Shown: positions 11,706 to 43,256 of the stretch, in pieces | Position numbering within the stretch: position 1 is the stretch's first letter | How the letters are laid out: each line of letters begins with the position of its first letter | Origin: Selenomonas timonae | GTDB taxonomy: Bacteria; Bacillota; Negativicutes; Selenomonadales; Selenomonadaceae | Assembly (NCBI RefSeq): GCF_014250475.1 | Contig: NZ_CP060204.1 | Span: 620,001-684,000 of the forward strand | Reading direction: 5' to 3' | DNA: 64,000 bases | Notes under the pieces: generated by a model | Seen by the model: only the letters and a program-made list of their open reading frames with translations | What the model was told of the DNA's origin: nothing | The model's database searches: none | Position numbers and translations under genes: made by a program

Positions 11706-11732
11706 GGGATATGAAATGGGACTGCTCTCGGA

Positions 11733-11800
11733 GCGCCCCTATCGGCTCGTTTCACTCGCCACTTCTACACGTCCCGCGCAAGCGGTGGAAGGGGCGCTCA
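11733..11800 (+). repeat. Degenerate copy of repeat family C
   Basis: Ends in GCGCAAGCGGTGGAAGGGGC, matching the right half (GCGAAGCGGTGGAAGGGGC) of the family C copies at 26791 and 51537. The left half is diverged. GAGCGCCCCT near 11740 and AGGGGCGCTC at 11789-11798 are complementary and could pair across it. No coding potential seen. Confidence 0.5.
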
Positions 11801-11825
11801 TGCAGCAGCGCCGTTTCTTCGGCAT

Positions 11826-11862
11826 AAAAAAAGCACTGTGCAGAAAAGCACAGTGTTTTTTT
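11826..11862. terminator. Bidirectional intrinsic terminator
   Basis: CACTGTG (11834-11840) pairs with CACAGTG (11849-11855), flanked by seven A on the left and seven T on the right. It can end the dehydrogenase transcript on the plus strand and the CRISPR transcript on the minus strand. Confidence 0.85.
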
Positions 11863-11864
11863 GT

Positions 11865-11974
11865 TGTCCCATGCCGCACGCAGCATTCTATGTGTTGGGA
11901 CAAGGGATGTACTGTTTGTGGTAGAAAGCATCTTTGAGTTTCAATGCCGCACGCAGCATTCTATGTGTTGGGAC
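11865..11974 (-). CRISPR. Orphan minimal CRISPR array: two repeats, one spacer
   Basis: A 37-base repeat on the minus strand begins GTCCCAACACATAG and ends in the classic ATTGAAAC. The intact copy is 11938-11974. A 36-base spacer follows (11902-11937), then a second copy (11865-11901) identical for 31 bases but degenerate at its 3' end, as expected for the leader-distal repeat. A terminator follows. No cas gene is in the window. Spacer origin is unknown. Confidence 0.85.
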
Positions 11975-12232
11975 TCTGTCGTCCCCAGCCCTTGTCCCAC
12001 GTGGGCTGAGAAGCCATTTTGGAAAGTCGTCCGTTTTTCGCGCTGTTTTTGCTGCCAAAATGCGTTCTCCGAACGGAAAATCGCGTGGCAGATCGCCTCT
12101 ACTCCTTGTGCGGCGCGGGCTGCGCCGTTTTGGAAAATCAGAGCGGTAGAATGCGGCTTGCGCGCCCCTGCGGATCATTTTCCACTTTTTCACTTCGATG
12201 ACGATTATAGCATAGATTTCCTCATTTTTCAA
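11975..12232 (-). promoter_or_regulatory. Putative CRISPR leader with strong promoter
   Basis: Upstream of the intact repeat. On the minus strand -35 TTGAAA (plus 12227-12232) and -10 TATAAT (plus 12204-12209) are exactly 17 bp apart and point at the array, with about 230 bases of leader between. This stretch has an open frame on the minus strand, but it runs into the CRISPR repeats and resembles no protein, so I treat it as non-coding. Confidence 0.65.
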
Positions 12233-12322: not shown

Positions 12323-12331
12323 TGCTATACT
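12323..12331 (+). promoter_or_regulatory. Extended -10 promoter of exporter operon
   Basis: TGCTATACT (12323-12331) lies immediately before a short family B element, so the transcript should begin inside that repeat about 95 bp before the hlyD-type gene. Confidence 0.55.
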
Positions 12332-12332
12332 A

Positions 12333-12391
12333 TAGGAAGCACTGATAAATTCAGCACTGCCATCTTGGCGTATTTTTATCAGCGATTCCTA
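12333..12391 (-). repeat. Repeat family B, internally deleted copy
   Basis: About 59 bp. On the minus strand it reads from AGGAATCGCTGATAAAA to TTTATCAGTGCTTCCT, i.e. both terminal inverted repeats of family B. Between them only the right-hand interior remains (CGCCAAGATGGCAGTGCTGA). The left interior of the full-length copies is gone. It sits between the promoter and the ribosome binding site of the exporter operon. Confidence 0.85.
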
Positions 12392-12429
12392 TATGCGATA
12401 TTCCGATTTGGTGAAAAGGGGGAAGCCGC

Positions 12430-20544: not shown

Positions 20545-22269
20545 CTACGCTGCACCCTCCTCGTTCTCGGCGGAGACGGTGTTGCGTCCCTTTTTCTTCG
20601 AGATGTAGAGGGCGCGGTCGGCGCGGTCGATGAGCGCGCGGAGACGATCCTTCTTGCCGTGCCAGGTGGAGATGCCGAAGCTGAGCGTGACACCGTCGAG
20701 GCGCTGCTCGAGGATGCGTCTGAGATGCTCGCAGAACGCAACCATTGCCTCGAGGTCGTAGTGCAGGGCGAGGAGGACGAACTCGTCGCCGCCGTAGCGG
20801 ATGAAGAGGTGGCGGCGGTCGATCTCCTCGTGGATGGTATCCGCGATCTCCTTGAGGATCTGGTCGCCTGCGAGATGCCCCTTCGTGTCGTTGACGGTCT
20901 TGAAATGGTCGACGTCGAAGATGGCAAACGAGAATTTGAATCCGCGCTTGTAGGCGAGGGCGGAGAACTTTGCAAAGCCATTGCCGAGTTGGTGGCGGTT
21001 GTAGCAGCCCGTGAGGAAGTCACGCTGTGCCTCGTTCTGTGAGATCTCCAACTCGCGTACGAGCTCCTCGTTCTCCTGCGCAAGCGCCGCGTCCTTCAGC
21101 ATTTGCTCGCGGATCGTGTAGAAGATGAAGGGGATGCTCGCATAGATCGAGAAGACGGTGGTCGAGAGCATGACGGAGAGCTGATGATACTCCCAGTGCA
21201 GCGCGTCGATGCCGCCGAATATGACGATCGCGGTCATGGCGAAGGCAGCGTAGCGGCAGGCGGGGTGATACTCCCAGTTCGAGCGGACGAGGGTGTAGAT
21301 GAGGATGAGGCTGCCGATGAGCAGCAGCGGATAGAAGAGGAAGAGGAGCTCCATGTAGCCGTCGAGGCCTGCAATCTCCGTGATGGTCGCCGTGACAAAG
21401 AGCAGGGCGAACACCTTCATTGTTGTTTTTACATGCGTGACGAACTGCGGCGAGACGACCTCCTGCGTGATCTGCGCACAGATCAGGGGCATGACGTAGA
21501 GCGTGACGAGGTGGAGCTCCCACCAGAAATTTGCCATGCCATAGATGCGCGGGAAGAAGGAGGAGGTGCCCGTTGTCCACAGGATAAAGCCCGCGAGATA
21601 GGCAATGAGGTAGAGCTGCATGCGGCGCCGCCGTGCATGAGCGCCGCGCCAGGCGAGATCCATGACGAGGAAGACGATCAGCGCGACTGCGACCGACAGG
21701 CTCGAGATGTAGATTGCATCGGCGAGGCTGAGGTTCCGCAGAAAGAGGTGCGAGGAGCCGATCATGAAGTAGTCGATGCTGCCGAGCCAGTTCGGATAGC
21801 CCGAGTGCAGCATGATCGTTAGGCGTTTGCCCGCCAGATCTTGATCGAGATGCACGTAGTGGAACGCGCGCCCGCGTGAGTCCGTGAGCTTGCTCCAGTC
21901 GCCGTGCATATAGATGAGCTCGTCATCGAGGTAGACGTAGGCATCCTGATTCGTCGTCGCAAATAGGATGTGGTCGTTCACAAAGCGCGCGGAGAGCGGG
22001 ATGCGCCACGAGAGGTAGACCGTCGTGGTGTCATCCGGCATAGGCGGCGGCGCCGGGTAGTCATACTCCTGCCAGTCGAAATTGCCCGCACGAAATCCGA
22101 TGATGTCCTTGTACTCCGGGTTCCCCTTCATGACGGCGTACTCGGCACGCATATAGGGATCGAGCGGTGTCGCAAGGAGGCTCCACGCGAGCGCCGTTGC
22201 TCCAATCAGGAGCGATACACAGAGCAGTGTGAGTACATTCCCCCGCAGAAACACAAGTATTTTATTCAT
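20545..22269 (-). CDS. Membrane diguanylate cyclase with extracytoplasmic sensor (paralog 1)
   Basis: 574 residues from ATG 22269 behind AAGGAGG (a GTG three codons earlier is less likely). A signal-anchor helix leads to a roughly 170-residue extracytoplasmic beta domain, including NQDAYVYLDDELIYMHGDWSKL. Seven membrane segments (7TM-DISM type) and a short coiled coil follow, then a GGDEF domain. RDFLTGCYNRHQL, DVDHFKTVND and RYGGDEF are intact, so it should make cyclic di-GMP. The RxxD inhibitory site is absent. 60-70% similar by eye to the next gene. Confidence 0.9.
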   Translation of the reverse strand: MNKILVFLRGNVLTLLCVSLLIGATALAWSLLATPLDPYMRAEYAVMKGNPEYKDIIGFRAGNFDWQEYDYPAPPPMPDDTTTVYLSWRIPLSARFVNDHILFATTNQDAYVYLDDELIYMHGDWSKLTDSRGRAFHYVHLDQDLAGKRLTIMLHSGYPNWLGSIDYFMIGSSHLFLRNLSLADAIYISSLSVAVALIVFLVMDLAWRGAHARRRRMQLYLIAYLAGFILWTTGTSSFFPRIYGMANFWWELHLVTLYVMPLICAQITQEVVSPQFVTHVKTTMKVFALLFVTATITEIAGLDGYMELLFLFYPLLLIGSLILIYTLVRSNWEYHPACRYAAFAMTAIVIFGGIDALHWEYHQLSVMLSTTVFSIYASIPFIFYTIREQMLKDAALAQENEELVRELEISQNEAQRDFLTGCYNRHQLGNGFAKFSALAYKRGFKFSFAIFDVDHFKTVNDTKGHLAGDQILKEIADTIHEEIDRRHLFIRYGGDEFVLLALHYDLEAMVAFCEHLRRILEQRLDGVTLSFGISTWHGKKDRLRALIDRADRALYISKKKGRNTVSAENEEGAA

Positions 22270-22326
22270 GGGGTGCACCTCCTTCGAGAGAGGAGCAGAG
22301 ACGATCGTTCACTTATATTTATCTTG

Positions 22327-22355
22327 ATTATATCATCCTATTAGATAGAGAACAA
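22327..22355 (-). promoter_or_regulatory. Promoter of first GGDEF gene
   Basis: Minus strand -35 TTGTTC (plus 22350-22355), 17 bp, -10 TATAAT (plus 22327-22332). It lies after the terminator of the upstream paralog, so the two are transcribed separately. Confidence 0.7.
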
Positions 22356-22406
22356 TAGGAAAATGAAAAAGAATACGAATTTTGCTAAGCAAGAACGAGG
22401 TATACA

Positions 22407-22450
22407 CGAAAAAAGACTGCCACATGAGAGCAAATGCTTTCATGTGGCAG
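22407..22450 (-). terminator. Terminator of second GGDEF gene
   Basis: CTGCCACATGA (22417-22427) pairs with TCATGTGGCAG (22440-22450); on the minus strand TCTTTTTT follows. Confidence 0.9.
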
Positions 22451-22498
22451 CTATGTTTTGTATTTATGGGGAAAGTTACGCTATTGTTATGCCGCGCG

Positions 22499-24232
22499 TC
22501 AAACTGTCTCGGGCTCCTCCAGACATTCGTCCTCGCCGGAGACGGCGTTGCGCCCCTTTTCCTTCGAGCGGTAGAGGGCGCGGTCGGCGCGCTCCATGAG
22601 CGCCGCCATATGATCCGCTTCGCCGTGCCATGTCGAGACGCCAAAGCTCAGGGTAACGCCGTCCAATGTCTCCGCGAGAGTCTGGCGCAGCGCGTCGCAG
22701 AATGCGACCATCTCCTTGAGATTGTGATGGAGGGCGAGGAGGACGAATTCATCGCCGCCGTAGCGGATGAAGATATGGCGGCGGTCGATGTGTGCGTGAA
22801 CCGTATCCGCGATCTGCTTCAGCACGCGGTCGCCCCCAAGATGGCCGCGCGTATCGTTGACCTCTTTGAAGTGATCCACGTCGAAGATGGCGAACGAGAA
22901 GTTGAATCCGCGCGTGTTGGCGAGTGATCCGTATTTCGTAATGCCGTCTGCGAGTTGATGGCGGTTGAACGCACCTGTGAGGAAGTCGCGGCTCGCTTCG
23001 TCCTGCGACTCCTGCAGCTCGCGCGCGAGCACTTCATTCTGCTGTGCGAGCTGCGCGTCCATCTGCATCTGCTCGCGGATGAGGAAGAAGACGAAGGGGA
23101 TGACGGCGTAGATCGAGAAGATCGTGGTCGAGAGCATAGATGCGAGGAGGTGATACTCCCAATGCAGGGCATCGATGCCGACGAAGATGGTCAGCGAAAG
23201 CATTGCAATCACGCCGTAACGACAAGCAGGATACTGCGACCAATCTGAACGGAAGAGCATGTAGATGAGCGCGAGGCAGCTGACGAGGAGAATCGGATAG
23301 AAGAGGAAGAGCAGGTTCATATAGCCGTCGAGCCCGCAGATTTCAAGGATCGTGGCAATTGCAAAGAGGCTTGCATATGCGATGATGACGACTCGCACGG
23401 CTTTCTTATATTGTGGTGCCGTGATCTCCTGCGTGATCTTGGCGAATGTGATCGGCATGATGTAGAGCATCATGAGGTGGAGCTCCCACCAGAGCTCAGG
23501 GATGCCGAGGAGGCGCGGGAAGAAGGACGATATGCCCGCCGTCCACAGGATGAAGCTCACGAGGAAGGCAATGAGGTAGACCTGTATTTTGCGCCGTGTA
23601 CGGATGTCGCGCCAGACGAGATCCATGACGAGGAAGACAATGAGGGAGAGTGCGATCGAGAGACTCGCGATGTAGATTGCATCCGCCGTGCTGATCTTGC
23701 GGATGAGGGATTTTTCGCTGCCGATGAGGAAGTAATCGAGGCTGCCGAGCCAGTTCGCATAGCCCGTGTGCAGCATGATTGTGACGCGCTTCCCCGCGAG
23801 ATCCTCGTCTACGTGGAGGAAATGAAGCGTCCGCCCGCGTGAGTCCGTGAGATCGGACCAGTCGCCGTGGATGTAGATGAGCTCGTTGTCGAGGTAGACG
23901 TAGGCGTCCTGATTTGTCGTCGTAAAGAGGACATGGTCGACAAAGAGTGGTATTGTTGCAGGAATCTGCCACGAGAGGTAGACCGTGGTCGTCCCCGGCG
24001 GCATGGGCGGCGGGATGGGATAGTCATACGGCTGCCAATCGAAATGCGCGGGGTCGAAGCTGATGATGTCCTTGTACTCGGGTTCTCCCTCGAGAACGGC
24101 ATACTGCAAATGGGTTGGCGTGTACGGCGCATGCGAAAGCGTCTGCCATGTGTGCGCCGCAAGCGCTGCAATCAGCGCGCCGCACAGGAGCAGAACACGG
24201 CTGTCCCATATGTTGTGAAAGAATTTTGTCAT
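22499..24232 (-). CDS. Membrane diguanylate cyclase with extracytoplasmic sensor (paralog 2)
   Basis: 577 residues with the same architecture as the downstream gene: membrane anchor, extracytoplasmic domain (NQDAYVYLDNELIYIHGDWSDL is almost identical), seven membrane helices and GGDEF domain. RDFLTGAFNRHQL, DVDHFKEVND and RYGGDEF are intact; no RxxD site. Divergence is greatest at the N-terminus and in the membrane part, least in the sensor core and GGDEF. This is a tandem duplication with separate promoters and terminators. Start ATG 24232 follows a weak AGCAGGA. Confidence 0.9.
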   Translation of the reverse strand: MTKFFHNIWDSRVLLLCGALIAALAAHTWQTLSHAPYTPTHLQYAVLEGEPEYKDIISFDPAHFDWQPYDYPIPPPMPPGTTTVYLSWQIPATIPLFVDHVLFTTTNQDAYVYLDNELIYIHGDWSDLTDSRGRTLHFLHVDEDLAGKRVTIMLHTGYANWLGSLDYFLIGSEKSLIRKISTADAIYIASLSIALSLIVFLVMDLVWRDIRTRRKIQVYLIAFLVSFILWTAGISSFFPRLLGIPELWWELHLMMLYIMPITFAKITQEITAPQYKKAVRVVIIAYASLFAIATILEICGLDGYMNLLFLFYPILLVSCLALIYMLFRSDWSQYPACRYGVIAMLSLTIFVGIDALHWEYHLLASMLSTTIFSIYAVIPFVFFLIREQMQMDAQLAQQNEVLARELQESQDEASRDFLTGAFNRHQLADGITKYGSLANTRGFNFSFAIFDVDHFKEVNDTRGHLGGDRVLKQIADTVHAHIDRRHIFIRYGGDEFVLLALHHNLKEMVAFCDALRQTLAETLDGVTLSFGVSTWHGEADHMAALMERADRALYRSKEKGRNAVSGEDECLEEPETV

Positions 24233-42962: not shown

Positions 42963-43256
42963 GCAATTAAATATGCGGGAGGGCGTCGCATCCCTCCACG
43001 TTTCCGAGCAAAAATATCTAAGGGCTGAGCAGAGCCTATGATATTGCGCCTGCGCTGAGCGGTCTATGCAAAACGCGCACAGGGTTCACACAGAAATGCG
43101 CGGGCCTTCCCCTTGGAGGCTCGCGCCTCCCCTTGAAAAGGAAGCGACAGAATTGCCTCATTACAGAGCGTTGTACGCTGTTTTTTCGGCGTGCGTTCCT
43201 ACCCATCGAATTTTGAAGGCTGTTCGTCGTACCTTTGGTGCGGGGGACAGCCTTTT
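42963..43256 (+). ncRNA. Putative structured noncoding RNA
   Basis: From a consensus promoter to a terminator hairpin at 43208-43256 (AGGCTGT pairing with ACAGCCT, then TTTTT). Between them are hairpins GGAGGG/CCCTCC (42979-42998) and GCGCGGGCCT/AGGCTCGCGC (43101-43130), and GCAATT near the 5' end can pair with AATTGC at about 43152. It could be 6S RNA by size and drive, or a leader for the hydrogenase operon; I found no diagnostic motif for 6S, tmRNA, RNase P or SRP RNA. Confidence 0.45.

Follow-up and report, generated by a model that had tools for sequence, protein, structure and literature searches.

A one-spacer CRISPR array of Selenomonas timonae as a probable satellite of a distant type III-D system

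Judging from sequence comparison, the short CRISPR array on the minus strand of the analysed DNA (the window, 64,000 nt of the Selenomonas timonae chromosome) is very probably a satellite array working in trans: it would be transcribed, cut by a Cas6 encoded 1.45 million bases away and loaded into the Cas10 complex of the same remote type III-D system, for which it would present a frozen memory. Together with two similar loci, it appears to be all that is left of guide-RNA genes for an otherwise intact III-D system. The initial annotation had called the array an orphan. Locally this is correct; at the level of the genome it is not, because both repeat and leader recur and the III-D operon resides in the same chromosome.

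Results

Anatomy of the array

The elements named in the initial annotation, i.e. two 37-base repeats, a 36-base spacer, a promoter and a terminator, are all present, and all lie on the minus strand; the annotation had given no strand. The sigma-70 promoter (TTGAAA-17-TATAAT with TG-extended -10 box, 12204-12232) agrees with consensus in 11 of 12 positions. It is the sole promoter-like site in 700 bp (shuffled sequences contain 0.3 on average), and all homologous leaders have a corresponding promoter. A leader of about 225 nt follows (11975-12198); it is homologous to the leaders of two other arrays in this genome and of III-D arrays in the genus, and is presumably transcribed. Inspection and folding (z -1.96) place a second TTTCCAAAA..GGC copy and an AGCCC..GGGCT hairpin at its end (11975-12030), where, by the same approach, GGGAC could pair with GTCCC of the first repeat.

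Repeat 1 (GTCCCAACACATAGAATGCTGCGTGCGGCATTGAAAC, 37 nt, 11938-11974) contains a Cas6-type stem ending in GCGGC and the tag ATTGAAAC. Upon folding, it forms a 7-bp stem with CGUG loop, which ends in GCGGC (plus AUU) and precedes the remainder of the AUUGAAAC tag; a short stem and then a tag is the form of repeat that Cas6 proteins cut. The single spacer (TCAAAGATGCTTTCTACCACAAACAGTACATCCCTT, 36 nt) occupies positions 11902-11937 and the terminal repeat, again 37 nt long, positions 11865-11901. The first 31 nt of the latter are identical to repeat 1, and its tag end is replaced (ATGGGACA), the last six bases being GGGACA as opposed to TGAAAC. Two near-identical repeats around one unique 36-nt spacer identify the locus as a CRISPR array. 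Search of the window with a 19-nt piece of the repeat, allowing up to 3 mismatches, gave 2 matches where 0 are expected by chance. An intrinsic terminator (11826-11855; stem 11855-11834, T tail to about 11826) closes the array just beyond the range of 11865-12232 originally assigned to it.

The degenerate distal repeat, regarded as expected in the initial annotation, is indeed a normal trailer end: the Cas6 stem is spared and only the crRNA tag is lost. S. timonae (G000) and its sister species Selenomonas sp. FOBRC6 (G008) have five other satellite arrays between them, and four of these show the same altered end. As the terminal repeats of these four and of the window array keep the stem and lose most of the tag, this pattern would fit avoidance of extraneous crRNA.

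Dispersed elements are present on both sides of the array. An inverted-repeat element (GCGCCCCTATCGGCTCG..TCGCCACTT) lies immediately past the array terminator (11718-11817), and a similar element also trails the cas-proximal array of another genome, G010. An imperfect inverted repeat (GGAAGCACTGATAAAT...ATCAGCGATTCC, 12325-12392), dispersed and numerous in the majority of genus genomes, resembles a short REP/MITE-type element.

Copies of the unit and the III-D operon

The S. timonae genome was searched by pattern and by family. The 31-nt repeat core is found with 0 mismatches at three chromosomal sites: an array of three repeats and two spacers (C1:570258-570430), an array of one spacer between two repeats, of which the second has 3 mismatches (615680), and the window array itself with its two repeats and one spacer (631871-631974). 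The same repeat is hence combined with different spacers. From promoter to first repeat, the three leaders are mutually 90-94% identical over 294-295 nt; their homology begins about 12 bp upstream of the -35 box, and outside the promoter-leader-repeat unit the sites look unrelated. Membership of the two copies in a longer dispersed repeat had been named in the initial annotation as an argument against a CRISPR. This applies only in so far as the complete unit is present at two more sites, which is how other arrays are dispersed as well.

No cas operon is seen around the array, as initially noted, and weak matches to the Cas10 palm in the window belong to GGDEF diguanylate cyclases. Two adjacent 577-aa GGDEF proteins (20545-24232) give weak scores with the Cas10 palm model; these are not cas genes. 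The cas operon of interest is located at 2.076-2.087 Mb, 1.45 million bases from the window array, and encodes a RAMP protein (TIGR03986), Csx19 (TIGR03984), a Csx7-like Cas7, Csx10, another Cas7, Cas10 with GGDD motif, Cas6, Csx20 and a CARF-HEPN protein. On the basis of Csx19, Csx10, Cas10, Cas6 and Cas7 models, it is of type III-D. Directly downstream of it, on the same strand, there is a leader 74% identical to the dispersed ones (2076004-2076252), followed by one related repeat (GTTGCACCACATAAAATGCTGCGTGCGGCATTGA) without spacer and by a cas2 fragment. The III-D operon with this homologous leader and repeat strongly supports the proposal that cas proteins from another locus serve the array. 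Stem plus tag start (GCTGCGTGCGGCATTGA) have only five exact copies in the genome, at the three arrays and beside the III-D operon, and are identical in dispersed and cas-proximal repeats. The 5´ ends differ (GTCCCA versus GTTGCA), which speaks against the satellite reading in so far as Cas6 would have to accept both. Four spacers belong to this repeat family in S. timonae, all of them in the dispersed arrays.

Loss of adaptation and constraint on the effector

No match to cas1 was found in the S. timonae genome, whereas the gene is present in 13 of the 14 genus genomes searched. The cas2 gene is truncated; its match spans 55 of 74 positions and includes a stop. When eight III-D genes were compared between S. 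timonae and its sister species G008, dN/dS ranged from 0.11 to 0.30 and no stops were encountered; dS was 0.12-0.19 in seven of the genes and 0.34 in Csx20. Alignment of the CARF-HEPN protein towards its C-terminus contained one stop in G008. Orthologous leaders of the two species diverge by 4-6%, i.e. less than synonymous sites. Low dN/dS and leader divergence below dS point to ongoing constraint on both effector and leader.

One could argue that a III-D system deprived of adaptation leaves behind only decaying mini-arrays, whose spacers are no longer used. Lack of detectable cas1, the truncated cas2, the spacerless cas-proximal repeat, the total of four remaining spacers and the erosion of a leader hairpin in the window copy (see below) all agree with such a dead relic. 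We nevertheless consider it improbable, because the effector genes are intact and evolve at the low dN/dS given above, the leaders are more conserved than synonymous sites, and promoter, repeat stem, tag and terminator of the window array are all preserved.

Relatives and spacers

A fuller layout is found in a congener (G001), where the III-D operon is accompanied by a homologous leader, a 16-spacer array (about 881290-882462), cas2 and cas1; inspection and alignment show homology of this leader along its length. Csx19 is present in 53 of 189 genomes of the family. In G086, another Selenomonadaceae genome, two Csx19 loci (L161 and L162) go with four arrays that have near-identical leaders, and multi-array III-D therefore extends beyond the genus Selenomonas. 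Another relative, G011, has arrays of the present kind without Csx19, and possesses another type III Cas10 together with Cas1. Use of these arrays by III-D is thus not obligatory everywhere.

Some satellite arrays of relatives have particular structures. At locus L036 of G011, two arrays (C1:573486 and 577352) are 4 kb apart, and both leaders lack about 107 nt between the duplicated TTTCCAAAA segments (leader arm copies), with different junctions. In the nine-repeat array of G010 (L035, C14:117520-118126), each of two different spacers has a tandem duplicate.

In the sister species G008, the three sites known from S. timonae are likewise occupied by arrays, and a cas-proximal remnant with one spacer is present. 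No spacer is common to the two species, and the array orthologous to that of the window holds two unrelated spacers. For the ten spacers of both species, no protospacer was detected in phages, plasmids or 120 relatives. Parts of the four S. timonae spacers gave no protospacer in IMG/VR by exact-match scans of pieces, which are insensitive; matches to 17-mers of the window spacer, when extended, cover no more than 26 of its 36 bases. Given this insensitivity and a probably poor sampling of phages of the genus, we regard the absence of protospacers as neutral. A match of a G011 spacer to an ABC-transporter substrate-binding protein gene (29 of 36 bases) was treated as chance.

The window spacer has no self match in its own genome at E<=0.1. 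This result, together with the unrelated spacers of the orthologous array, counts against the earlier suggestion of a relic whose one spacer was kept for regulation. III-D complexes act on RNA, and a single spacer behind its own promoter might guide the complex, or pair alone, against a host transcript. As the sister-species array carries other spacers, no spacer-dependent function is conserved, and we find a regulatory role very hard to defend.

The 615-kb site is common to S. timonae, G010 and G011 with both flanks, and in G008 with at least one side plus leader; flanks of G008 align there at 89-91%. The window site is occupied in S. timonae and G008 and empty in G007, in which an alcohol dehydrogenase and an HlyD-type gene are adjacent with no array between them. 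Shared sites with different spacers suggest that the arrays were seeded before the species split, that spacers were exchanged at about the time of the split or later, and that adaptation was lost afterwards. That the promoter-leader-repeat-terminator cassette is a mobile or self-copying DNA unit duplicating independently of immunity is quite implausible: although the same unit sits at three sites, its homology starts at a defined point upstream of the -35 box and G007 lacks an array at the window site, neither an encoded enzyme nor a target-site duplication was recognized, spacers turn over like those of ordinary arrays, and the 615-kb site shared by four species (in G008 by at least one flank plus leader) indicates that movement is rare.

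Possible RNA structure of the leader

The window leader contains an eroded copy of a 5´ hairpin, H1 (12128-12188, minus strand), in which the outer 8 bp are kept and folding energy is not distinctive (z -0.2). H1 of cas-proximal III-D leaders is a strong hairpin, with z of -6.0 in S. timonae, -6.5 in G001, -5.0 in G211, -6.7 in G221 and -4.4 in G067. Window leader and repeat as a whole fold somewhat better than shuffled sequences (z -2.3). The H1 stem varies between genera (GGAAAAU..AUUUUCC versus CUGAAAACCUC..GAGGUUUUCAG), the window copy has the loop stretch GCAAGCCGCATTCTACCG in common with G221, and a matching second copy of the 3´ arm is found further downstream.

We may speculate that a structured RNA element is conserved at the 5´ end of III-D leaders in Selenomonadaceae. 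It would consist of a hairpin close to the start of transcription; the stem sequence changes from genus to genus while its pairing is retained, and as a second copy of the 3´ arm follows downstream, the 5´ arm might alternate between two partners. The element might act on transcription or processing of the precursor, the switch having decayed in satellite arrays of S. timonae. We hold this for rather unlikely. Pair counts for H1 covariation within the genus were not clearly above shuffled or slid controls, for which reason we do not claim leader RNA structure as shown, and a repeated DNA-binding motif would also explain the pattern of H1 arms. The leader segment GCCGCATTCTA was considered as a tracrRNA-like anti-repeat and rejected, because on inspection it does not track repeat changes between species. 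No Rfam family reaches gathering score on leader or array; elsewhere in the window (42990-43159), a Molybdenum cofactor (Moco) riboswitch exceeds it.

Discussion

A possible course of events, starting from the satellite array of a remote III-D system, is as follows. RNA polymerase would start at the promoter belonging to the array and stop at the array terminator, yielding a precursor of about 370 nt. The Cas6 encoded in the III-D operon would then cleave both repeats 3´ of their GCUGCGUGCGGC stem, releasing one crRNA composed of AUUGAAAC, the 36-nt spacer and a 29-nt repeat piece. Owing to the altered tag of the terminal repeat, the 3´ end of this crRNA would still be made and no tagged extraneous crRNA would arise. 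The Cas10-Csx10-Cas7 complex would take up the crRNA, and upon encounter with matching phage or plasmid RNA, synthesis of cyclic oligoadenylate might activate the CARF-HEPN RNase. The array presumably received its spacer from a Cas1-Cas2 that has since been lost, and is frozen at present. On this reading, a locally orphan one-spacer array can be working memory of a distant CRISPR effector. S. timonae would offer a natural case of a III-D system without adaptation, in which the effector and a few scattered guide genes are kept under selection.

Regarding known systems, the S. timonae operon has the gene content of type III-D (Cas10, Csx10, Csx19, Cas6), and homologous leader and repeat occur both beside it and in the window array. 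In contrast to usual III-D systems, only one repeat is left of the cas-proximal array, three remote mini-arrays supply the guides and adaptation genes are lost. Isolation from arrays has been reported for 28% of type III cas loci (PMC5294841), and multiple arrays sharing a repeat, at any distance, have been described (PMC12814883). Remote arrays being common for type III, our finding belongs to a known kind of arrangement; like the isolated arrays used in trans, the window array is far from its cas locus and shares its repeat type. Unlike in other such cases, the remote arrays of S. timonae seem to be the sole source of spacers and have their own repeat sub-type (GTCCC start). Dispersed arrays with a long conserved leader and few repeats also occupy many chromosomal sites in Methanocaldococcus jannaschii; this combination is alike, while the host is archaeal and the system types are other.

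The last comparison concerns leader RNAs. In II-A, II-C and VI arrays, structured leader RNAs limit extraneous crRNA (PMC13187072, PMC12080349), which in class 1 systems would come from the last repeat (PMC13187072). The window leader similarly has hairpins and possible leader-repeat pairing, and an altered repeat stands where extraneous crRNA would arise. The differences are that the present system is of class 1 and that its main conserved hairpin is situated towards the 5´ end of the leader and away from the first repeat. If the family-wide leader hairpin works as RNA, the idea of functional leader RNA would be extended to class 1 systems.
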